Shown here: one piece after another, positions 33,461 to 46,168 of the stretch | Layout of the letters: every line of letters begins with the position of its first letter | Position numbering within the stretch: the stretch's first letter is position 1 | Source of the DNA: Lactovum miscens | GTDB taxonomy: Bacteria > Bacillota > Bacilli > Lactobacillales > Streptococcaceae | DNA: 46,441 bases | Assembly (NCBI RefSeq): GCF_014202895.1 | Contig: NZ_JACHHV010000011.1 | Span: forward strand, 1-46,441 | Direction: 5' to 3' | Notes under the pieces: model-generated | What the model was told of the DNA's origin: nothing | The model's input: only the letters and a program-made list of their open reading frames with translations | Databases searched by the model: none | Made by a program: the position numbers and the translations under genes

Positions 33461-34921
33461 TTAGAGTCCTAAAGATGATCTCAAATTAATCCAGTTTCCT
33501 ATCAGGCCAAACAAGGCTAGAATTGCTAAGAGTGCAATTAGAAACATTGCTAACCACTCATTTCTATGAATCTTGAGCTTATGTTCCCGCCGAGCAATTA
33601 TATACAGTGCAAACCCAATTGTATAGAGCAAGGTTGTTAGCCAGATATATTCCCAACCACTTAGGTAGAGAGCTAAGAGTTGGAAAACCAAGGCAACAGC
33701 ACCAAAAGCTCCAATTTCAGCCTGTTTTTTCTGAATCCCCAACTTTATAACGTAAAGTCCAACAAGAGCATAACAAATCATAATAGCTGCCGTACAAAGA
33801 TTGACAAAAACTATGTAGGCATTTGTAAAGAAATAAGTGACAACAATAAAAATCTGAACAATAATTTCGGTTAGCCAAAGCGAATTACTTGGTGCATTAT
33901 ACTTGTTGCGCTTATCAAACCAATTTGGCAACAAACGTTGCTCTGCCATCTGAGAGGTTGCTTCAACTGGTAGCATTGTCCATGCCAGCCAAGCTCCCAT
34001 AATTGAGATTATCAGTCCTACCGCCATAACAGCACTTCCCCAAGTCCCTACCATTTGTTTCATGATATAAACAAGTCCAGGAGTTTGAAGCTTTGCCAAA
34101 GCAGATTGATTCAAATAGCCAAAAGGTAGGAGAGAAAGAATAATATAAATAGCCAACAAGATAATAACACCCAACACGCTGGCACGACCAGCGTCATCTT
34201 TTTTCTTAGCACGGTTACTCATCATCGCCGCTCCCTCGACCCCAACAAATAGAAAAACCATAACCATCAAAGAGCTCTTTACCTGTCCCAATAAATCAGT
34301 GGCCGATAGCTTATCGCTGACAAATAAAAGTCCCTGAGCATTTTTTACTACATTACCCCAGAAATGGGCCGTAAAGAGACCTGCCTTAAAGCTAAGCACA
34401 GCTACTATCGTGAAAAAACCTAGGGGTACCAATTTGGCAACCAAAATAACTGCATTAATAAAGGCTGCAGACTCAACCCCATAGACAACGATAATTGTCA
34501 TTCCTAGAGAAATAATCGAAACTACAACAATTGATATTAGAGTCAGTGATCCTTTGGCTGTCTGAAAACTAGGTATGAAATAAGCCATTGTCTGCATAAG
34601 TAATACAGCAAAGGCAATATTTCCGAACCAGCTTGATAAGTAGTAACCCCAACCAGAAAGAAAACCAACAAAATCACCAAATCCTGCACGAGCATAGTCT
34701 GACAAACCACTTAATTCCGGCATTTTTAAGACTAAATAATTCAAACAAAGTACCAAAGCAACTATACCTACACCTACAAAAAACCAACTAATAACGACAC
34801 CACCTGGTGTTGCTTCTATCGCCAAAGAATTTGTTAAATTAAATACACCACCACCAATGGCTGAACTGACAATTACTGCAATGAGGGCAAATAATCCGAT
34901 ACCTTTTTGTTTTTTTTGCAT
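33461..34921 (-). CDS. arcD2: Arginine/ornithine antiporter ArcD (second copy)
   Basis: This membrane antiporter exchanges external arginine for internal ornithine. The 486 residues form about 12-13 hydrophobic segments, and the APA-family start GLFALIAVIVSSAIGGGVFN is intact. It is clearly related to the 530-residue copy at 38161, matching it in blocks such as YARAGFGD, GVEGAAMM and AWLAWTMLPVEAT, but it is shorter at the C-terminus. It is the last gene of the arc cluster. An extended -10 (TGTTATAAT, -10 at 34963-34968 on the minus strand) suggests a promoter of its own. Confidence 0.9.
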   Translation of the reverse strand: MQKKQKGIGLFALIAVIVSSAIGGGVFNLTNSLAIEATPGGVVISWFFVGVGIVALVLCLNYLVLKMPELSGLSDYARAGFGDFVGFLSGWGYYLSSWFGNIAFAVLLMQTMAYFIPSFQTAKGSLTLISIVVVSIISLGMTIIVVYGVESAAFINAVILVAKLVPLGFFTIVAVLSFKAGLFTAHFWGNVVKNAQGLLFVSDKLSATDLLGQVKSSLMVMVFLFVGVEGAAMMSNRAKKKDDAGRASVLGVIILLAIYIILSLLPFGYLNQSALAKLQTPGLVYIMKQMVGTWGSAVMAVGLIISIMGAWLAWTMLPVEATSQMAEQRLLPNWFDKRNKYNAPSNSLWLTEIIVQIFIVVTYFFTNAYIVFVNLCTAAIMICYALVGLYVIKLGIQKKQAEIGAFGAVALVFQLLALYLSGWEYIWLTTLLYTIGFALYIIARREHKLKIHRNEWLAMFLIALLAILALFGLIGNWINLRSSLGL

Positions 34922-34962
34922 ATTTATTCTATTCTATAATTTTTATTAGTGAAATCAAGGTG

Positions 34963-34968
34963 ATTATA
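34963..34968 (-). promoter_or_regulatory. Probable arcD2 promoter (-10)
   Basis: Minus-strand TGTTATAAT forms an extended -10 with TTGAAG 15 bases upstream. It lies 41 bases before the arcD2 start codon. Confidence 0.45.
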
Positions 34969-35024
34969 ACATATTAAAAAATCCTTCAAAAAGTACGTTT
35001 GATAACTTATCTCGTTATTTACTA

Positions 35025-35969
35025 TTAACTACCAATTATTCGAGTTCCAGCACCATTTTTAACAAAGTTTTTCACATTATCAAGTGAAGTAATTGTGGCA
35101 ATCTTACCTGTGCGCTCAGCAAATAAAGTGGCAGCAGCCACTTTTGGCTTCATTGAACCTTCCGCGAAGTAGCCATCGTTAATGTAACTGTTCATTTCAG
35201 ATGAGGTAACTTCGGTCAATAGAGATTGACTTGGCTTACCATAGTTCAAATAAACATCGCCACCAGATGTAAATATTACCAATTCATCAGCTCCAACAAG
35301 CTCTGCTAATTTAGCTGCTGAGAAATCTTTGTCAATCACGGCTTCAACACCTTGATAACCTCTCTCAACCTTGATTACTGGAATGCCACCCCCACCAGAT
35401 ACACAAACAAGTGCTCCAGCATTTAGAAGAGGCTCAATCACATCAGCTTCAAGCATCTCAACCGGAAGTGGTGAAGCAACAACACGACGATAACCGCGAC
35501 CAGCATCTTCAACGATTTGCCAATCTGGGTTTTGAGATTTTAACTTTTCTGATTCTTCTTCTGTGTAAAAGGGACCAATTGGCTTGGTCAAGTGAGTAAA
35601 AGCAGGATCAGTAGCCTCAACAACTGTACGAGTCACAATAGAGACAAATGGCTTTTTCAACCCATGCTTATCAAAAGCTTTCGTAAAGGCTTGCCCCATC
35701 CAATAACCAATTTGACCTTGAGTCATTGCACCAACAGTATCAAGTGGCATTGCGGGGTTCTTTTCAGAGTCGGATCCCAATTGTTGGAGGAGAAGGTTAC
35801 CAACTTGAGGACCGTTGCCATGAGTAATAATCAACTCCACATTTTTGTCAATAACCAGTGGCATTAACTGCTCAGCTGTATTTTCAAGGGAAAGTTGTTG
35901 AGCGTTTGCTGATGGATCACTTGCAAGAATAGCATTTCCTCCCAAAGCAACAACTATACGTCGCATCAT
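35025..35969 (-). CDS. arcC2: Carbamate kinase (second copy)
   Basis: The enzyme converts carbamoyl phosphate and ADP to ATP, ammonia and CO2, the energy-yielding step of arginine catabolism. The 314 residues carry VVALGGNAIL at the N-terminus, THGNGPQVGNLLLQQ, and GGGGIPV with AVIDKDFSAAKLAELVGAD. It is strongly similar throughout to the other copy at 37201 and has the same length, so the two are duplicates. ATG codons occur twice in a row at the start. It lies between arcT and arcD2. Confidence 0.93.
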   Translation of the reverse strand: MMRRIVVALGGNAILASDPSANAQQLSLENTAEQLMPLVIDKNVELIITHGNGPQVGNLLLQQLGSDSEKNPAMPLDTVGAMTQGQIGYWMGQAFTKAFDKHGLKKPFVSIVTRTVVEATDPAFTHLTKPIGPFYTEEESEKLKSQNPDWQIVEDAGRGYRRVVASPLPVEMLEADVIEPLLNAGALVCVSGGGGIPVIKVERGYQGVEAVIDKDFSAAKLAELVGADELVIFTSGGDVYLNYGKPSQSLLTEVTSSEMNSYINDGYFAEGSMKPKVAAATLFAERTGKIATITSLDNVKNFVKNGAGTRIIGS

Positions 35970-35999
35970 AATATTATATTTCCAATCTATCTAAATTAA

Positions 36000-37130
36000 T
36001 TATTTAAATTCGCGTAATGCTTCTGACAGTAATTCCAGACCTGTGCGCAGGGTTTTTTCATCAGTGCAATATCCAATTCGTGCATGTCCAGGCATATCAA
36101 AACGATTACCTGGAACAATAAGTACTCCTTTTTCCTTTAGAAGATACTCAGCAAACTCTTCTGTTCTTTCTGGAGCCAATTTTTCAAATTTTACAAAACT
36201 GACCGATACCATGTCTGGATAGATCATTGAAACCAGGGGCTCATTTTCAACCCAAGCCTTTAATATAGCCAAATTATTCAAAACAATTGAACGTGAACGA
36301 CATAATACTTTGTCCTTATGTTTCAAAACTAAAGCAGCAATTGCATCATCAAAAACTCCCGTGCATATCAATGTGTAGTCACGAATTTTTCGGATATTAT
36401 TGACAAGAAAATCGTCTTTAGTAGCTATCCAACCAACCCGAATGCCTGGAACTGAGTAGGTCTTTGACAATGAGTTAGTCGAAATTCCCTTATCATAAAG
36501 ATCAGCAATTGGGCTATAATCTATTTCTGAATTTAAGGGAAGATAAACCTCATCTGATAAAATATATGCACCAACTGAACGAGCAATTTCAACTACTTCT
36601 TTCAAGAATACAGTGTTCAAAATAGCACCTGTTGGCTGAGCAGCGTTGTTGATACAAATCAATTTTGTATTTTTTTTAACAAGAGCACGGAGCTCTTCAA
36701 GGCGAGGGTGCCAGTCTTCTTCTTCATACACATTCCAATAATCAACCTCTGCCCCCAAAGTCCTCGGCCAATCATAAAGCTGTTGATAAGTTGGATACTC
36801 AGCGATGACGTGATCTCCAGGCTCAATCAATCCAAGAACCGCTATGAAGTTAGCACCTGTTGCACCATTTGTTGATAAAATATTATCCGTCTTGATATTC
36901 TTGTAAAGTTTTGAGACTTCATTTTTGAATTGGGGTGAGCCCTCAATCCAACCGTATGAAAAAGTTTCTTTTTTTAATTTTTCTAGAATAGCCACTCCAG
37001 AATCTGGTTCAAGATTCAAAATATCTTCTAAAGTTAAGGATGATATCGTTGACTGAGCAATATCAATTTTGGCTGATTTTTCCCAATTATTTAACCAATC
37101 CTCACATCCAAATTGTACAAGATTCATCAT
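36000..37130 (-). CDS. arcT: PLP-dependent aminotransferase ArcT
   Basis: This is a class I/II aminotransferase of 376 residues found in arginine deiminase clusters; its exact substrate is unproven. The pyridoxal lysine is in SNSLSKTYSVPGIRVGW. Other features are NGATGANF for phosphate binding, INNAAQPTGAIL and LSDEVYLPL. A GAGG ribosome-binding site precedes the start. It lies between the two carbamate kinase genes, and a terminator-like hairpin separates it from the upstream arcC. Confidence 0.85.
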   Translation of the reverse strand: MMNLVQFGCEDWLNNWEKSAKIDIAQSTISSLTLEDILNLEPDSGVAILEKLKKETFSYGWIEGSPQFKNEVSKLYKNIKTDNILSTNGATGANFIAVLGLIEPGDHVIAEYPTYQQLYDWPRTLGAEVDYWNVYEEEDWHPRLEELRALVKKNTKLICINNAAQPTGAILNTVFLKEVVEIARSVGAYILSDEVYLPLNSEIDYSPIADLYDKGISTNSLSKTYSVPGIRVGWIATKDDFLVNNIRKIRDYTLICTGVFDDAIAALVLKHKDKVLCRSRSIVLNNLAILKAWVENEPLVSMIYPDMVSVSFVKFEKLAPERTEEFAEYLLKEKGVLIVPGNRFDMPGHARIGYCTDEKTLRTGLELLSEALREFK

Positions 37131-37143
37131 TTCTACCTCTAAA

Positions 37144-37187
37144 AAAAACTGTTACAGACTCTTTGATTCAGTGTTGCAACAGTTTTT
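37144..37187 (-). terminator. Internal terminator in the arc cluster
   Basis: On the minus strand AAAAACTGTT pairs with AACAGTTTTT across a larger loop, and a T-run follows. It stands between the first arcC and arcT and could reduce transcription into arcT-arcC2-arcD2. Confidence 0.65.
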
Positions 37188-37200
37188 GATTTTATCTATC

Positions 37201-38145
37201 TTAAGGAACAATTCTAGTACCAGAGCCAGTAGCTAAAAAGCTTGCCAGGTTATCCAGTGAAGTAATTGTAGCTGCATGTCCAGTGCAAGCCACAAATTCT
37301 ATTGCGGCTTGAACCTTTGGTAACATTGACCCAGCTGCAAATTGGCCTTGTTCAATATAATTGTTTATCTCAGCCATAGTCACAATCTCAAGCTTTTGTT
37401 GATCCAACTTGTTGAAGTTGACATAAACATTGTCTACCGCGGTCAGAATCAAAAGATCATCAGCTTCAATTAATTCTGCTAACCTTGCAGCTGAAAAGTC
37501 CTTATCAATAACTGCTTCAACTCCTTCATAACCGTCCTCAGTTTGAACAACTGGAACCCCGCCACCTCCTGAGATAATTGGAAGAACTGTCATTGAAACC
37601 ATTGCTGCCAAGGCTTTTGATTCGATAAACCCTTTTGGTTTTGGTGATGGAACGACTCGACGGTAGCCTCTTCCAGAGTCTTCAACAAAAGTCCACTCCG
37701 GATAAGTTTTAAGCAACTCATTGACTCCTGATTTATCGTAAAAAGGACCAATTGGTTTTGAAGGTTTCTCGAATGCTGGATCATTCTTGTCTACTAATGT
37801 ACGTGTTATGACTGGAAGAACATCAACTTGGCCCATACCATTCTTTTTTAACGCTTTAGTGAAGGCTTGAAGCGCCCAATAACCAATTTGTCCTTGAGTC
37901 ATCGCAACTGCCGTATCAAGTGGCATTGCTGGATTTTTTTTTGAATCTGTTGCTAATTGTTGCAACAAGAGGTTACCAACTTGTGGCCCATTTCCGTGAG
38001 TGACAATAATTTCTACATTATTATCTTTAATAAGTGGAATTAGCAGTTCAGCTGTTTTTTCTAAAGCAAGTTGTTGCGCCTTTGCAGTGGGGTCATCCGT
38101 TAAGATAGCATTCCCCCCCAAGGCTACTAAGATACGTCTTACCAT
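37201..38145 (-). CDS. arcC1: Carbamate kinase (first copy)
   Basis: This is the promoter-proximal of two 314-residue carbamate kinases. It starts MVRRILVALGGNAIL and contains THGNGPQVGNLLLQQL, MTQGQIGYW, GGGGVPV and AVIDKDFSAARLAEL. It follows arcD1 by 15 bases with a good ribosome-binding site (AGGAGA). It therefore belongs to the arcA-arcB-arcD1-arcC1 unit, which contains all that is needed for the deiminase pathway. Confidence 0.94.
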   Translation of the reverse strand: MVRRILVALGGNAILTDDPTAKAQQLALEKTAELLIPLIKDNNVEIIVTHGNGPQVGNLLLQQLATDSKKNPAMPLDTAVAMTQGQIGYWALQAFTKALKKNGMGQVDVLPVITRTLVDKNDPAFEKPSKPIGPFYDKSGVNELLKTYPEWTFVEDSGRGYRRVVPSPKPKGFIESKALAAMVSMTVLPIISGGGGVPVVQTEDGYEGVEAVIDKDFSAARLAELIEADDLLILTAVDNVYVNFNKLDQQKLEIVTMAEINNYIEQGQFAAGSMLPKVQAAIEFVACTGHAATITSLDNLASFLATGSGTRIVP

Positions 38146-38160
38146 CTCATTCTCCTATTT

Positions 38161-39753
38161 TTAAGCATCTTTAAGTTCAACCTTTTTAACAGCATTGTTT
38201 TTTATAATACTATAAATTAATGCACCAATACCCATTACCAAGATAGCTGTCAATAAATATACCATAACCATACTTGATGGATCAATTCCTAAATTTCCAC
38301 GTATATCAAGATTCCCCCCCCAAGATGCAAGCAAATCAATATCTGCAAAAATAGCTAGGAGCGTAATAATTGCAGAAGCGATGATATTTCCTTTTCCGAC
38401 TTTTTGACCGTTTTCTGTTTTTGCAATTGTAAAGAAGGCAAATCCAATGATATAGATAATTGTCGCTGCCCAGATAAAGATCCATCCTGATAAATAAAGG
38501 GCGTAAACTTGAAAAATACCAGCTAAGAATCCAATAATAATATTAGAAGTCTTCTTTTCCTGAAAGCCAAGTTTCATCATATAAAAGCCAACCAAGGTAT
38601 AACAAATCATGATGACAGCTGTGCATAGATACACGAACACATTATAGGCATTTGCAGAGAAATAAGTCATAATAATGAAAACCTGCATCAGCAGTCCTGT
38701 TAACATTAAAGCATTAAATGGTGCGTTGTTTTTATTAAGTTTACCAAACCATTTTGGCAAAAGCTTTTGCTTTGCTAATTGTGTAGTAGCCTCCACTGGC
38801 AACATTGTCCAAGATAACCAAGCACCGAGGAGAGAAATAATAAGGCCTATCGCCATTAATGAACCGCCCCAACCTCCTACCATGGCATTCAAAATATTTA
38901 TAAGTCCTGGAGCAGCAACATTTGCTAAAGTCTTTTGGTCCATAAATCCATAAGGTAAAATAGAAAGTAGAACATAGATAACAATTAAGCTAATTAAGCC
39001 GAGAATCGTGGCACGACCTGCATCAGATTTTTTCTTCGCACGATCCCCCATCATAGCAGCACCTTCAATACCAACAAAAACCCAAATCATAACCATCAAA
39101 GAGCTTGAAAATTGGCTCATAAATCCAGAACCCGTCATAGCTGAAAAAGTAAATTTTGACATGTCAGCATTCACTGACACATTTTGCCAAAAATGCTCTG
39201 TAAACACACCAGCCCTGAAAGAAACAATGGCAGCAATAGCAAAAATTAAAAGTGGGATCAATTTTGCAATCAAAACAATGGCATTAATCACAGCTGCTCC
39301 CTCGACTCCACGTGAAACAAGAATGGTCAAGCCCCACATGACTAGTGAAACAACAACAACTGAAAGAATCGTCAAAGATCCATTCTTATTGGCAAATGTT
39401 CCCTTGAAGAAGAAATCAACAGATGTCATAAGAAGTACAGCAAAGGCAATATTTCCTAACCATGCCGATAACCAGTAACCCCAACCAGAAATAAACCCAA
39501 CTAGATCCCCAAATCCAGCACGAGCATAGTCTGAAACGCCAGATAATTCTGGCTTATTAACAATTAAATAATTAAAAGTAAGTACCAAGAATAAAATCCC
39601 TAGCCCAACAATTAACCACGAAACAAGAGCACCACCTGCTGTCGCACCAGACGCCAAGCTATTAGGAAGGTTGAATACACCACCTCCAATTGCTCCTGAG
39701 ACGATTAGTGCAACTAAAGCAACTAGACCAATTCCCTTTTTATTTGCTTCCAT
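38161..39753 (-). CDS. arcD1: Arginine/ornithine antiporter ArcD (first copy)
   Basis: This integral membrane exchanger of the APA family has 530 residues. It starts GLVALVALIVSGAIGGGVFNLP, has about 13-14 hydrophobic segments and ends in a basic tail. It is longer than the second copy by an extra hydrophobic segment near the C-terminus (SSMVMVYLLTAILVMGIGAL). AAAAGGA precedes the ATG. It lies after arcB and before arcC1. Arginine import with ornithine export is the expected role. Confidence 0.93.
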   Translation of the reverse strand: MEANKKGIGLVALVALIVSGAIGGGVFNLPNSLASGATAGGALVSWLIVGLGILFLVLTFNYLIVNKPELSGVSDYARAGFGDLVGFISGWGYWLSAWLGNIAFAVLLMTSVDFFFKGTFANKNGSLTILSVVVVSLVMWGLTILVSRGVEGAAVINAIVLIAKLIPLLIFAIAAIVSFRAGVFTEHFWQNVSVNADMSKFTFSAMTGSGFMSQFSSSLMVMIWVFVGIEGAAMMGDRAKKKSDAGRATILGLISLIVIYVLLSILPYGFMDQKTLANVAAPGLINILNAMVGGWGGSLMAIGLIISLLGAWLSWTMLPVEATTQLAKQKLLPKWFGKLNKNNAPFNALMLTGLLMQVFIIMTYFSANAYNVFVYLCTAVIMICYTLVGFYMMKLGFQEKKTSNIIIGFLAGIFQVYALYLSGWIFIWAATIIYIIGFAFFTIAKTENGQKVGKGNIIASAIITLLAIFADIDLLASWGGNLDIRGNLGIDPSSMVMVYLLTAILVMGIGALIYSIIKNNAVKKVELKDA

Positions 39754-39819
39754 AATGTAATAATCCTTTTCTATAATTTGAGAAACCCATCAAAATGACA
39801 AATATCTCAAGCCAAAATA

Positions 39820-40869
39820 TTATTCCCAATCTTGTGGTACTGCTGGAATGAAGAGATTACCAAGTGTAGCTGCCATAATTGCCTTGATTGAGTGCATACG
39901 ATTTTCTGCTTCTTCAAACTGACGGGCAAACTTACTACGGAAGACTTCATCAGTAACTTCCATTTCAGTCAACCCATATTGCTCTTTAATTTCTTTGCCA
40001 TACTTAGTATCCGTGTCATGGAAGGCAGGTAAACAGTGCATAAAGATTAATTTACCATTTTCTGTGTTGCCAGTTAGTTCCATCATATTCATGGTGATAC
40101 GATATGGCGTGAGAAGTTTAACGCGTTCCTCCCAATTGCTTTCTCCCATTGATACCCAGACGTCTGAGTAGATAATGTTTGCACCTTTAACCCCCTCTTC
40201 AATACTCGAAGTGGCAAGTGGTTTAGCTCCTGATTTTACTGCAAAATCATTAGCAATATCCATGACTTCTTGACTCGGATGCAGACTGTCAGGGGCAACA
40301 ATGTGCACATTGACCCCAAGCATCGACCCAGTTACGATCAAACTATTCGCCATATTATTGCGTCCATCACCTACATAGACAAGAGTAAGGCCCTTAAGAT
40401 GACCAAATTCTTCTTTAACTGTCATGAAGTCTGCAATCATCTGAGTTGGGTGCCATTGATCGGTCAAACCATTCCAAACTGGAACACCAGAGTATTTTGC
40501 TAAATCTTCAACTTCTTGTTGTGAGAAGCCTCGGCGTTCAATGGCATCAAACATAGAACCCAATACTCTTGCAGTGTCCTCTGTTGATTCTTTGATTCCT
40601 AGTTGGATATCATCTTTTCCAAGATACTCAGGGTGAGCTCCCAAATCAATAGATGCTGTTGTAAAAGCAGCACGTGTACGCGTAGATGTCTTCGCGAAAA
40701 GTAGGGCTATGTTACGTCCCTCAAGATAGCGATGTGGGATTCGATTTTTCTTTAATGCCTTGAGGTGAATTCCAAAATCTACAAGATAGTTAATTTCTGC
40801 AGGGGTAAAGTCCTTCTCTGCTAAAAGGCTACGACCTTGAAATACTGAGTTTATTTTTGCTTCTTCCAT
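39820..40869 (-). CDS. arcB: Ornithine carbamoyltransferase, catabolic
   Basis: The enzyme cleaves citrulline with phosphate to ornithine and carbamoyl phosphate. The 349 residues show the carbamoyl-phosphate loop STRTR (62-66), HPTQMIADF and the ornithine-side motif HCLPAFHD. The HCLPAFHD form separates it from putrescine carbamoyltransferase. AAGGAAG precedes the start. It lies 43 bases after arcA in the operon, which makes the catabolic role clear. Confidence 0.95.
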
Positions 40870-40912
40870 TTTTCTTCCTTTGTGTTTGTATTATTTAAAA
40901 TATTGATTTTTT

Positions 40913-42151
40913 CTATAAGTCTTCGCGCCAAAGTGGTTGTGACATACAACGTGCTCCTCCACGACCACGAGCCAATTCCGACGATAAGATTTCGTGAACT
41001 TTAACGCCATGTTTCTTAAGCAATTCAATCGTGATATAGTTACGATCATAAGTTACAATTTCTCCAGGGGCAATGGCAAGTGTATTTGATCCATCATTCC
41101 ACTGCTCACGCGGTGCTATGATAGAGTCACCACCACCACACTCTATTAAATCAAGCTCTGTTAAATTCAAAACTCTCTTTAACGCGGCTTCAAGATCCGT
41201 TAGATGCTCAATCTTAATTTCATCTGCTTGCTTGCCGGGAGTTAAAATAAATGTATTAATTGATCCATCACCGTGGAAGATTCCAGGAAAAACTGTAAAC
41301 TGGTCACGATTAATCATTGTAAAAACTGTATCCAAGTGCATCATAGCATGGTTATGCGGAATTTCGACTGCCAATACAGTATCAAAGGTTGATAGTGGAT
41401 TCTTGAACAATTCAAGTGCTAATTGTTGAATAGATTTACTTGAAGTTCTTTCAGAGACCCCAATTGCCACAACATTTTTACTAAGGATCAATTCATCTCC
41501 ACCCTCAATTCGAGTTTGATGATTACGATTGCGCCACACAGGAACTTTACCTGCGAAACGTGGATGATGATTCAAAACATATTCTGTCAAAAGTGATTCT
41601 GGTTGACGAGCGGCAAAAGTCATACGGTTTACTGTCATACCAATACCCATGGAAGCTTGAGGATCCCGTGTAAAATAAGCGTTGGGCAGAGGATCAAGAT
41701 AAAATAATTTTTCTGCATCACTACCAGCCATGTCTGACAACACTTCATGAGGAATTTCAATTTCTTTTTTCTGAACACCAGCATATATTTTTTCAATAAA
41801 ATCTTTAGTGGTAAATGAATTTAGATATTCTGCCAGTCCCTCAAATGTTTTGCCTCTTGAATATCCATGTTCTTCAAGATATCTTCTAGTAAAACCTTCT
41901 CGAACTAATTTAGATGTATCCAAAGTTTCTGCGATCAATTGTTCAATGTACAATACTTCCGTTCCTGTATCGCGTAAAGTTTGAGCAAAGAAGTCATGTT
42001 CCTTTTGAGCAATTTCCAAATACGGAATATCATCAAACAGAAGACGATCCATTGTATCTGGCGTTATATTCTCAACTTCCTCTCCAGGTCTGTGGAGGAG
42101 CACAGTTTTTAACTTACCAATTTCGGAATTGACATTAATTGCATTATCCAT
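40913..42151 (-). CDS. arcA: Arginine deiminase
   Basis: This enzyme hydrolyses arginine to citrulline and ammonia, the first step of the pathway. The 412-residue product (from ATG 42151) has the catalytic Cys402 in GGARCMSQPLWRED at the C-terminus. Other family motifs are FTRDP, GGDELIL and MHLDTVFTMI. An open reading from 42169 also exists, but the later ATG has AAAGGA upstream and the conserved start NAINVNSEIGKLKTVLLHRPG. It is the first gene of the arc operon, downstream of a cre-containing promoter. Confidence 0.96.
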   Translation of the reverse strand: MDNAINVNSEIGKLKTVLLHRPGEEVENITPDTMDRLLFDDIPYLEIAQKEHDFFAQTLRDTGTEVLYIEQLIAETLDTSKLVREGFTRRYLEEHGYSRGKTFEGLAEYLNSFTTKDFIEKIYAGVQKKEIEIPHEVLSDMAGSDAEKLFYLDPLPNAYFTRDPQASMGIGMTVNRMTFAARQPESLLTEYVLNHHPRFAGKVPVWRNRNHQTRIEGGDELILSKNVVAIGVSERTSSKSIQQLALELFKNPLSTFDTVLAVEIPHNHAMMHLDTVFTMINRDQFTVFPGIFHGDGSINTFILTPGKQADEIKIEHLTDLEAALKRVLNLTELDLIECGGGDSIIAPREQWNDGSNTLAIAPGEIVTYDRNYITIELLKKHGVKVHEILSSELARGRGGARCMSQPLWREDL

Positions 42152-42189
42152 TTTTATAAATCCTTTCATTTAATCGTTACAACTATTTT

Positions 42190-42336: not shown

Positions 42337-43378
42337 GGCAAATTGTAAAATTAAGTTAGCCACCTGAAGAAAGAAAAAAACACCTGAAACCTTTATACTT
42401 GAATTTGGAAAAATAAAGTAGAAAAGGATTCAGATGCAAGATGCTTCTAATACAAAAGGCAAACATTTAACACTGATTGAACGACATCAAATTGAACGTT
42501 GGCACAATAGGGGACACCGAAGTGACAATCAGATTGCACGCCTCTTAGGTAAGGCACCACAAACGATTCATCATGAACTCAAGCGGGGACGGGTTCAATT
42601 TAAGACCAAGACCAAGTATTCCGCTGAGGTGGCTCAAGCTTCCTATGACAAAAGTCGAAGGCATTGTGGACGTCCCTCAAAGTTCACAAAGGTTTTGAAT
42701 GATCTGATTTCAAAAGGCGTCCGGGAGAAATTATCACTTGAAGTCCTCTCTCATAAACTTTCTCATCCTGTCTGTTTACGAACGCTCTATCACTGGATTG
42801 AAGCGGGACGTCTGGATGTGAAAACCCATGATCTCCTTTATCCTCAGGTGAAGAAACTACGGTCAGCTCAGCCTAAGCGACCTTATGGGTCACCGAACAA
42901 CGTCCTGAGGTGATTAACCAGCGTGAAGAATTTGGAAATTACGAGATTGATACCGTCCTTCTGACAAAAGCGAAGGAGGAGTGTCTCCTAACGCTTACAG
43001 AAAGAAAGACACGTTCAGAGTTGATCCGATTGATTCCAGATAAGTCTGCCCAATCTGTTAACATGGAACTCAAGATAATCCAGCAAACCATAACGTTCAA
43101 ATCCCTTACTTCGGATAATGGCCGTGAATTTGCATGCCTTCGTGAAGCAGTAACTTGTTCGGTTCATTATTGTCATAACCTATGCAAGCTTTGAGCGTGG
43201 AAGAAATGAGAACCACAATCGTATGATCCGACGTTTTTTGCCTAAGGGAACACGATCAACGACAAAAGAATTTGTGACCTTTATTGAAGGTTGGATTAAT
43301 TCTTATCCAAGAAAAATGTTCACTTATAAAAGTTCGAACCAGATGTTAAGACTGGCTAACTTATAATTGCAATTTGCC
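42337..43378 (+). mobile_element. IS30-family insertion sequence, about 1.04 kb, inactive
   Basis: The element is bounded by imperfect terminal inverted repeats: GGCAAATTGTAAAATTAAGT at the left, and at the right the reverse complement reads GGCAAATTGCAATTATAAGT. Both continue into TAGCCA. The length fits the IS30 family. The transposase inside is frameshifted. The flanking 2-3 bases do not give a convincing target duplication. Confidence 0.85.
42434..43366 (+). pseudogene. IS30-family transposase, two frameshifts
   Basis: Reading starts at ATG 42434 with the helix-turn-helix region LTLIERHQIERWHNRGHRSD and runs in one frame to KRPYG near 42889. It then continues after a frame change with VTEQRPEVINQREEFGNYEI and DTVL (first catalytic Asp) and SDNGREF (second Asp). 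A second frame change near 43180 leads to YASFERGRNENHNRMIRRFL (catalytic Glu region) and ends at 43366. The domains are all present, so this is a recently inactivated copy. No slippery heptamer is seen at either break. Confidence 0.85.
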
Positions 43379-43395
43379 AATATTTGAGAATAATT

Positions 43396-43426
43396 AAAAA
43401 GTCGAGAAAATAATTCTCAACTTTTT
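43396..43426. terminator. Terminator between the redox operon and the IS element
   Basis: AAAAAGTCGAGAA pairs with TTCTCAACTTTTT (one mismatch) around AATAA, with T-runs in both directions. It follows the ferric-reductase-like gene on the minus strand. Confidence 0.8.
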
Positions 43427-44703
43427 TAAAAACTAAATTTTTCTCCATAAACATTTGAAGATTTAACACCTTTTTTCTTGAGCATGGTCATTGTCCCACT
43501 CATCATCTGATTGGACCCTCCGACCAGAAAATAAGACTTTTCATTTGCAAATTGGTCAATCTGATATTCTGATAACCTACCAATTTGAGATATATAGTGG
43601 AAGTTTGAATATCTATCAGATAAGCTTTTTAAGAACTCTTCATATATAAGATCTTTTGGCTCATGTGCCACACGTACAAAAGTGATCTCACGTTTCCCAA
43701 CAAAATGTATAACAATTGATATAAGTGGGACAGAGCCTAGACCTGAGCCAATCATAACTAAATTTTGATTTATGTGCTCTTGTAAAGATTCATATAGCCG
43801 CCCATAACTTCCATCAATCTTCACTCGACTTCTTAGTTTTAACTGATCTAATTTACCTGTGAAATCTGAATAATTTCGAATTGCAAAAGTTACCTGTTTT
43901 TTCTGCTTATTATACTGCAAAATTGAAAATGGATGTTTTTCTTTCATGCCTTCATCATTCGGAAATGAAATAAAAGCAAAATCTCCGGCACGATAAGCAA
44001 TATTTCCTTTAAGTTGAACGACAAGTTCTGTTATGTTATCTGCTAATTTTCTATTTGAGATGAGCCTCCCATTATGAAAAGCCAATGGTTTTATAAAATG
44101 ATAGCTAAAATAGACAACAGCTGTGACACCTGAGTATAGATAGAACCAAAACATATAAGATTTAATTGATGTAATATATGGTATCAATAACACATGTCCA
44201 AAGACTAGTAAGGTTGCGACAATATTTAATCGATGTAACCATATTGAAGTCTCATAATTGAAAATCTTTTCTAAATATTTCTTAACTTTGTTAGCAAAAC
44301 GGCTTCTTCCAGTCAGCCAACTTGACATAAAGAAAATTGAATAAAGCAAAATTGAAATAAATAAGTAAAGTGAGATCTCTCCAGTTAATTTTATCAACCC
44401 AGTAGAAGGGGAAAGTTCTTTATGAAAGAAAGCCAAGACTACAGCAAGTGTTCCAACAATTCCGTGTAAAAAATACATTTCGGGTAGCCCTATCAACCGA
44501 TCTAACCAACGTGGCTTTACTGAAATTGCGATAACCAAAAGCATCCATACATAGGCAATTGTTCCAATCTGTATACCCAAAGTCATTGGTGCGTTAATCG
44601 TACCTGTTACCCCCTGTGTAGCTGTCAAAATAAGAGGAAAAGGAATAATGAATATAGTTATTAGCCAAAAGAGGCCTAACCAAAATTTATGTTTCTTTAG
44701 CAT
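43426..44703 (-). CDS. Ferric reductase-like transmembrane flavocytochrome
   Basis: This is a 425-residue membrane protein with a six-helix ferric-reductase/NADPH-oxidase type domain of about residues 8-205. Two histidine pairs with b-type heme spacing are seen: His80/His94 and His157/His170. The C-terminal cytosolic part is a ferredoxin-reductase-like domain: FAD motif HPFS (257-260), GSYGRL (298-303), nucleotide loop GSGLGSVP (319-326) and a C-terminal VGGSNQM. It should carry electrons from cytosolic NAD(P)H through FAD and two hemes to the outer face. Its start overlaps the ApbE gene by 17 bases, and it is the last gene of a three-gene operon. The electron acceptor is unknown; the exported FMN protein or Fe(III) are candidates. 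Confidence 0.82.
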   Translation of the reverse strand: MLKKHKFWLGLFWLITIFIIPFPLILTATQGVTGTINAPMTLGIQIGTIAYVWMLLVIAISVKPRWLDRLIGLPEMYFLHGIVGTLAVVLAFFHKELSPSTGLIKLTGEISLYLFISILLYSIFFMSSWLTGRSRFANKVKKYLEKIFNYETSIWLHRLNIVATLLVFGHVLLIPYITSIKSYMFWFYLYSGVTAVVYFSYHFIKPLAFHNGRLISNRKLADNITELVVQLKGNIAYRAGDFAFISFPNDEGMKEKHPFSILQYNKQKKQVTFAIRNYSDFTGKLDQLKLRSRVKIDGSYGRLYESLQEHINQNLVMIGSGLGSVPLISIVIHFVGKREITFVRVAHEPKDLIYEEFLKSLSDRYSNFHYISQIGRLSEYQIDQFANEKSYFLVGGSNQMMSGTMTMLKKKGVKSSNVYGEKFSF

Positions 44704-45469
44704 TTGTTATTACTTCTTTCTCTACTATAATGCCGTGTCGGTTCACTTCAAAAGCTCTTAAATAGTTAGGCATCTTAGAATTAAAATCAACCATCAAAGC
44801 CGTCGCCCAAACGTCTACTTCTTGTAAATTTACTCCAATCACGGTTGTCTGCAAAATATTTTTATCTGCTCCAAAAATATGGTTTCCACGTTCTGAAATT
44901 CCCGAAGTAGCAATTGCTCCTTTTTTCATCGAAAGTTCTGCAATAATTTTCGTTTTATCAAAAGGATCGAGAACAGCAATTTCAAAATTCCAATCACTCT
45001 CTTCTTTGCTGGCCATTTGCATATCTCCACCACCATTCAAATTTGCGCCTATGACATTATTCAAATCAAGTAATGGCCTTAAATAACGATTAAACCCTTC
45101 CTCAATTGCCCAACCCTTAACAAATCCGCTTGGATCGTACCCAGATGGAAGCATTGCATTAAAAGAATGATGAGTTGCTTCACTTGCCTGAGCACATGAG
45201 ACATAGACAAAGCGCATTTCCTCAGACATACTTAAGAAGTCCACTTCGCCACGATTGTATTTGCTTACTTCTGAATTTTCCTTATAGGTTGAAAAGACTT
45301 CGTCAACATGTTCCAACCATTTTTCCAAAGCTCCTTGAGCAAACAAAATTTCGGGAACCGGACTTTCATCTTTGACAACGACCTGACTCGTAAAAGCTGT
45401 TCCCATCCCCAAATAGACAATGCTAATCATTTTATATCCCTGATTGACCTGTTTAATCGTTATTTTCAT
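44687..45469 (-). CDS. apbE: FAD:protein FMN transferase (ApbE family)
   Basis: The enzyme attaches FMN from FAD to a threonine of a target protein. The 260 residues show the family motifs DPSGFVKG (112-119), NGGGDM (145-150), ATSG (187-190), the RGNHI loop ending at Ile198, and the metal-site Asp219 and Thr223 in DVWATAL. No signal peptide or lipobox is present, so the protein looks cytosolic, unlike the lipoprotein ApbE/FmnB types. It starts right after the stop codon of the FMN-binding protein gene, which is its obvious substrate. Confidence 0.88.
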   Translation of the reverse strand: MKITIKQVNQGYKMISIVYLGMGTAFTSQVVVKDESPVPEILFAQGALEKWLEHVDEVFSTYKENSEVSKYNRGEVDFLSMSEEMRFVYVSCAQASEATHHSFNAMLPSGYDPSGFVKGWAIEEGFNRYLRPLLDLNNVIGANLNGGGDMQMASKEESDWNFEIAVLDPFDKTKIIAELSMKKGAIATSGISERGNHIFGADKNILQTTVIGVNLQEVDVWATALMVDFNSKMPNYLRAFEVNRHGIIVEKEVITNAKET

Positions 45470-45470
45470 A

Positions 45471-45983
45471 TCAGACCGCCTGTGTCAGCGCATTTTGTAG
45501 AGAATTCGTAAAACCGTCATAGGTCTCAGTTGCACCTGATATGGCTTGAATATTGGCCGAATTCGCTGACTTGGCTTCACTGATATAGATAGGTTCAGCA
45601 ATAGAGTCAATCTGATGGCTTCTACCCGCGCCATCAGAAGAAGTTGATTTGAGCATAATAATGTTACTGATTTGACCGCTAGAAACTGTGACTTGTACTT
45701 GTACATTACCCCACTGCGTCGCTATACTTTTTCCAGTGTAGGTTCCATCTTTATAGCCAGAAGAACCTGTCGAGCTTGACCCACTAACACTAGAAGCTTC
45801 CAAAGTATCAGAACTTTGAACCGTAGAAGTTACTGAAGAACTTCTTTGACTAGCGGAAGAACTCGAGGAGGCTGTAGCTAAAGTAGTTGTTTTTGTTATA
45901 TTTTTACTAAAGAACCAATAGCCATCAACGACTGCTACCAAACCAATCAGGGCCGTTACAATAATAGATACTAATTTTTTCAT
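45471..45983 (-). CDS. Exported, membrane-anchored FMN-binding domain protein
   Basis: This small exported electron carrier has about 170 residues. An N-terminal hydrophobic anchor (KLVSIIVTALIGLVAVVDGYWFF) is followed by a Ser/Thr-rich linker of about 55 residues typical of surface proteins. An FMN_bind domain then begins at YKDGTYTGKS. The flavinylation motif SGAT lies near the C-terminus, in AISGATETYDGF, with the acceptor Thr152. ATG 45983 was chosen since AAAGAAAG precedes it; an in-frame ATG at 46007 has no ribosome-binding site. It is the first gene of the operon with apbE and the ferric-reductase-like gene. Confidence 0.82.
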   Translation of the reverse strand: MKKLVSIIVTALIGLVAVVDGYWFFSKNITKTTTLATASSSSSASQRSSSVTSTVQSSDTLEASSVSGSSSTGSSGYKDGTYTGKSIATQWGNVQVQVTVSSGQISNIIMLKSTSSDGAGRSHQIDSIAEPIYISEAKSANSANIQAISGATETYDGFTNSLQNALTQAV

Positions 45984-46095
45984 CTTTAAGTCTTTCTTTA
46001 ATTTCATCTATTAATTTTTCAAATTTTAATGAAGCTAGGAACTTGGATAGAGGACCTATGCGTTTAAGCGAAAATGCCACTATTCAATAGCCTGT

Positions 46096-46127: not shown

Positions 46128-46168
46128 GCTTAATAAAAACTTAATCATAACTTAAATTCTGACTTCAT

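Follow-up and report, generated by a model that had tools for sequence, protein, structure and literature searches.

Streptococcaceae are usually described as heme-auxotrophic. Within the window analysed here, the whole 46,441-nucleotide stretch of Lactovum miscens contig NZ_JACHHV010000011.1 (assembly GCF_014202895.1), one gene encodes a putative transmembrane reductase with histidines placed like the ligands of two b-type hemes, which raises the question of where this enzyme would obtain its heme and to which partner it would pass its electrons. The operon family described below offers a testable candidate for the natural electron acceptor of bacterial NOX homologues, namely the neighbouring flavoprotein.

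A NOX-like reductase and its predicted heme ligands

The reductase ORF (Table 1) is real and starts with ATG. Pfam recognised only the cytosolic part of the protein (FAD_binding_8, 28.9 bits vs a cut-off of 22); PF01794 gave no match to the reductase up to an E value of 1, leaving its membrane domain unrecognised by Pfam, and matched only two of 20 relatives, weakly (best 0.0069). Homology of the membrane domain is instead seen through the profile of SpNOX, the NADPH oxidase of Streptococcus pneumoniae. SpNOX chains 8qta, 8qt6 and 8qq7 are the best solved relatives of the reductase (~1e-15), and a profile of the 20 relatives matched SpNOX at 1e-35, placing His80/His94 on both ligands of transmembrane helix 3 (TM3) and His157/His170 on both ligands of TM5. 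For TM3 the conserved pattern weighs more than the score, because this stretch alone scores low; the two proteins share identical spacings (H-X13-H in TM3, H-X12-H in TM5) and an E-x(5)-H-R-L motif. From sequence homology, the fold of the reductase is assigned as NOX-like and six-helix. An AlphaFold2 model computed from three sequences (the reductase, L016 and L017) had a mean pLDDT of 54.5, with values below 50 over residues 13-210, the membrane part. The protein also contains the FNR-type domain and HPFS motif that characterise the NOX/ferric reductase superfamily. Where bacterial NOX proteins have their published NADPH motif, the sequence is GLGSVP, and 12 of the 20 alignment rows, the reductase included, do not match the motif; the protein is thus referred to as NOX-like and not as NOX.

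The reductase contains 12 histidines (at 5, 80, 94, 157, 170, 202, 210, 257, 310, 333, 347 and 369), four of which, His80, His94, His157 and His170, had originally been predicted to have the spacing of two b-heme ligands. These positions are exact. Shuffles of the same protein produced the exact pattern in 1.0% of cases and the looser published filter of H-X12/14-H pairs in 15%, so the spacing by itself is weak evidence. Chance spacing is nevertheless rejected by conservation: the only invariant histidines in the 20 relatives (31-76% identity) are the four ligands, all aligned with those of SpNOX, and His257 of the HPFS motif. The original prediction had paired the ligands along one helix (His80/His94 and His157/His170), whereas SpNOX holds each heme across TM3 and TM5, the inner one by H69 (TM3) and H129 (TM5) and the outer one by H82/83 and H142 (PMC11031084). 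The expected pairs are thus His80-His157 for the inner and His94-His170 for the outer heme, and the positive-inside rule, applied to charges and helices, places His80/157 on the inner and His94/170 on the outer side. In SpNOX, activity was abolished in the double mutants H69A-H129A and H83A-H142A (PMC5676040).

Table 1. Features of the reductase operon and of related loci. Window positions unless a locus handle is given.
Feature	Position	Strand	Evidence or remark
NOX-like transmembrane reductase, six-helix two-heme domain and cytosolic FAD/NAD(P) domain, 425 aa	43426..44703	minus	ORF, Pfam, SpNOX homology, alignment
HPFS FAD-binding motif, residues 257-260	43924..43935	minus	invariant 20/20
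His170 codon, predicted outer-heme ligand, TM5, pair with His94	44194..44196	minus	invariant 20/20; aligns with SpNOX H142
His157 codon, predicted inner-heme ligand, TM5, pair with His80	44233..44235	minus	invariant 20/20; aligns with SpNOX H129
His94 codon, predicted outer-heme ligand, TM3, pair with His170	44422..44424	minus	invariant 20/20; aligns with SpNOX H82/83
His80 codon, predicted inner-heme ligand, TM3, pair with His157	44464..44466	minus	invariant 20/20; aligns with SpNOX H69
Short ApbE-family FAD:protein FMN transferase, 260 aa, without signal peptide	44687..45469	minus	Pfam ApbE 3.3e-19; conserved in operon
FMN_bind protein, predicted exported: membrane anchor at the N-terminus, linker rich in Ser, single FMN_bind domain	45471..46007	minus	Pfam FMN_bind 7.7e-10; hydropathy
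Thr160 codon in invariant SGAT, expected covalent FMN site	45528..45530	minus	alignment; site by analogy with known FMN_bind proteins
Three NTTAAG half-sites, 11-bp period, candidate CiaR-type direct repeat upstream of operon	46129..46156	minus	consensus from PMC3091779
Flavodoxin_4 or DUF2271 partners in some Streptococcus genomes	L061:3738-5204, L062:8021-9490, L060:8700-9359		

Heme supply

The original prediction had proposed searching the whole genome for heme synthesis genes. In the host genome (1.76 Mb, 99.2% complete) HemB, HemE and HemH were not found, with positive controls working each time, and there is no complete pathway; heme proteins of this organism would therefore need exogenous heme. 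The reductase is almost certainly, as judged from its sequence, of the NOX/ferric reductase superfamily type that carries two b-hemes, which the cell cannot make. The predicted dependence on an external supply agrees with both the missing genes and the conserved NOX-type two-heme ligands, and it is well supported by gene content and homology that the enzyme would work only when heme is imported. This point is an ordinary one, since streptococci that cannot synthesise heme were already known to have heme proteins, SpNOX among them.

Two generalisations made alongside this prediction proved less secure. The host had been treated as a Lactococcus, an assignment that is not established, as it falls in a separate five-species genus within the Streptococcaceae. 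Furthermore, the description of an organism group unable to make heme is too broad, because at least two Streptococcaceae relatives carry large hem operons. Genome G030 contains a run (L075:2494-12119) with the order hemH, hemE, a gene of unknown function, a protoporphyrinogen oxidase-family gene (hemY-type), hemA, hemB, hemL, hemC and hemD, much of which is also present in G059 (L073:2691-11005), and G063 encodes hemB and two ferrochelatases, arranged as in G030, with matches in G065 too. Genomes G030, G059, G063 and G065 belong to genus g8, which is not that of the host and may be Lactococcus. HemB in Streptococcus was considered as a possible sign of heme synthesis and set aside: the single locus read (L076, in G218) has cobalamin-type gene surroundings, and the reductase-bearing genomes lack an intact ferrochelatase.

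A conserved operon with exported flavin carriers

The reductase is the third gene of an operon with the order FMN_bind, ApbE, reductase (43426-46007), in which the ApbE and reductase genes overlap by 17 bases; its partners are thus a putative exported flavoprotein and an FMN transferase, and no quinone or oxidase genes are present in it. The same order occurs in 17 sampled Streptococcaceae genomes from three or more genera and with differing flanks, including G002 and G003 of the host's genus, Streptococcus (genus g4, taken as such from its size, well above that of any other genus in the sample) and two other genera. The operon's FMN_bind protein is the only FMN_bind match in the host genome, and in the host's genus FMN_bind is present in all three members with the reductase and in neither of the two without it. 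By analogy, Thr160 is expected to carry the covalent FMN. The host genome also encodes a lipoprotein ApbE elsewhere (L067), which might serve the substrate, predicted to be exported, in view of the missing export signal of the operon's ApbE; alternatively, flavinylation may precede export. In addition, two FMN_red-like proteins with C-terminal DTGAS-type tails are encoded in the host genome (L070:1360-3089 and L011:13722-14960), one beside a cytosolic ApbE and the other on the cydABCD contig. They resemble flavinylated FMN_red proteins reported in Lactococcus (PMC11334425).

Across the operon family, the neighbouring flavoprotein is swapped for other exported flavin carriers. G138 has ApbE with a DUF2271 protein, and in G182 and G134 the partners are Flavodoxin_4 proteins that carry an N-terminal anchor or a lipoprotein signal. 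No other argument speaks as strongly for electron transfer out to a flavoprotein as this exchange among three families of exported flavin carriers. Four reductase members (L025, L026, L028 and L029) have neither FMN_bind nor ApbE alongside, so that the partner is either dispensable or encoded elsewhere. The tree sets the reductase clade apart from the SpNOX-like proteins at a fully supported split, and the host's protein groups with those of G003, G002, G067 and G054. Close relatives in a scan of genome contigs came from two MAGs only, and a search of plasmid DNA gave no match.

Proposed electron route and alternative explanations

From gene order, domain content, conserved ligands and the missing heme genes, we infer heme binding, the direction of electron flow, flavinylation and the acceptor as follows. 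The reductase is probably a membrane electron-transfer subunit leading from NAD(P)H via FAD and two hemes to the covalent FMN of the exported FMN_bind protein. Its cytosolic domain would oxidise NAD(P)H through FAD, electrons would pass to the inner heme (His80/His157) and on to the outer heme (His94/His170), and from there out of the cell to the FMN that ApbE would have attached to the membrane-anchored FMN_bind protein. Candidates for the final acceptor are ferric iron, oxygen, a disulfide or another protein. The reductase would be functional only upon heme uptake, as the cell makes none. Points against this route are the four members with neither FMN_bind nor ApbE alongside, the missing export signal of the ApbE, the low confidence of the structural model and the deviating NADPH motif.

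The electron recipient is most likely a flavin protein outside the cell rather than a heme-dependent respiratory chain. The original prediction had seen in the reductase an adjunct of heme-dependent, conditional respiration, a reading that fits the need for external heme and the presence of cydABCD in the host genome. Furthermore, intact cydA is somewhat enriched among reductase-clade genomes (11/24 vs 33/221 others in a sample of 245; Fisher 8e-4, phylogeny uncorrected). However, 13 of the 24 lack cydA, and in the host's genus cydA occurs in all five genomes but the reductase in three, leaving two with cytochrome bd and without reductase, so the association is mild and clearly not a dependence. 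The operon holds FMN_bind and ApbE instead of a quinone or oxidase gene, and no menD was found above the cut-off in the host genome, where quinone used by cytochrome bd would probably have to be imported as well. An adjunct of respiration is therefore very improbable. Another explanation sees the protein as an NADPH oxidase that produces superoxide, as SpNOX does in vitro: oxygen would accept electrons from the outer heme, and the flavin neighbours would have some other role. SpNOX, the nearest solved homologue, reduces oxygen in vitro (PMC5676040, PMC11564096), and some family members stand alone. Against this, SpNOX-like genes form a separate clade, and the six SpNOX-like loci examined closely have no adjoining FMN_bind or ApbE, whereas the reductase clade is operon-linked to extracytosolic flavoproteins; together with the missing NADPH motif, this makes oxygen reduction of the SpNOX type distinctly unlikely.

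A narrower form of the preferred route to an exported flavoprotein would be an iron-acquisition operon that reduces ferric or heme iron outside the cell, which is possible, if doubtful. Membership in the ferric reductase superfamily is consistent with it, and some MsrQ-like flavinylation clusters contain an iron transporter (PMC8238504). An intact ferrochelatase was found in 0/24 reductase-clade genomes vs 120/221 others (Fisher 4e-8; 245 Streptococcaceae), a hint of a link to iron or heme metabolism, although the pattern is uncorrected for phylogeny and, with shared descent still in the counts, stands as an observation and not as a result. In G054 the operon is present and the ferrochelatase broken; within the host's genus, G004 has a ferrochelatase (a match with one stop) and no reductase, and G000, G002 and G003 show the reverse. 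A putative heme enzyme thus appears to be retained by bacteria unable either to synthesise heme or to place iron in porphyrin. On the other hand, no iron or heme transport family recurs beside the operon in ~20 loci, and SpNOX is a poor iron reducer (PMC11564096).

Comparison with known systems

Like SpNOX (PDB 8qt6, 8qq7), the reductase has a six-helix two-heme domain, an FNR-type FAD/NAD(P) domain, the same ligand spacing and HPFS, and SpNOX too comes from a heme auxotroph. In contrast, it shares only ~25% identity with SpNOX, its clade mostly has FMN_bind/ApbE neighbours, and ferrochelatase, absent in intact form from the reductase-clade genomes, is encoded in 44/51 SpNOX-like genomes, of which none (0/51) encodes cydA. 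The authors of the SpNOX work inferred a protein acceptor and named none (PMC11564096).

The region 43426-46007 combines a two-heme membrane protein, ApbE and an exported FMN_bind protein, the composition that defines MsrQ-like flavinylation systems, and the operon is best modelled as a Streptococcaceae branch of these systems. As in the MsrQ-like clusters with an NAD domain described by Meheust et al. (2021; PMC8238504), that domain is C-terminal and ApbE and FMN_bind are adjacent. PF01794 set the scope of that survey, whose finds were mainly Actinobacteria; since this model recognises so few members of the reductase clade, the survey probably missed it. Similarity is also seen with the flavin-based extracellular electron transfer of Listeria and Lactobacillales (PplA, EetAB, Ndh2), where a membrane-anchored FMN_bind protein flavinylated by ApbE is fed by cytosolic NADH. 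Unlike this system, the operon has a heme reductase in place of the Ndh2/quinone/Eet route, and its FMN_bind protein scores 16.7 of 325 bits on the PplA model, far under the cut-off. New here are the ferrochelatase pattern and the CiaR-type boxes before several of the operons, with the ferrochelatase pattern and the named flavoprotein partner as the points of interest.

CiaR-type repeats and neighbouring genes

The repeat upstream of the operon was noticed by eye and tested afterwards. TTTAAG-N5-TTTAAG, the published CiaR box (PMC3091779), occurs with at most one mismatch upstream of 6/17 operons vs 3/177 other upstream regions of the same loci (p 1e-5), and one of these three background repeats belongs to an unpartnered reductase of the same clade. 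The gap of 5 and the TTTAAG half-site outscore other gaps and letter orders. Such repeats precede FMN_bind in L047, L048, L053, L056 and L057, with perfect copies in the last two. The repeat in the window does not keep the 10-bp spacing to a -10 element that has been published for CiaR boxes and is thus only a lead. Extending the proposed route, a CiaRH-controlled reductase running on scavenged heme might feed interchangeable extracytosolic carriers (FMN_bind, DUF2271, Flavodoxin_4) as an envelope redox system, neither respiratory nor superoxide-producing, of heme-auxotrophic Streptococcaceae without ferrochelatase, although this full combination is speculative and rather unlikely to hold in every part.

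Further along the window, an arginine deiminase cluster (33461-42169) encodes two carbamate-kinase-like proteins and two arcD-like transporters. Between this arc cluster and the reductase operon lies an IS30-like transposase (42434-43194) whose coding sequence is broken up into two ORFs, each in its own frame.
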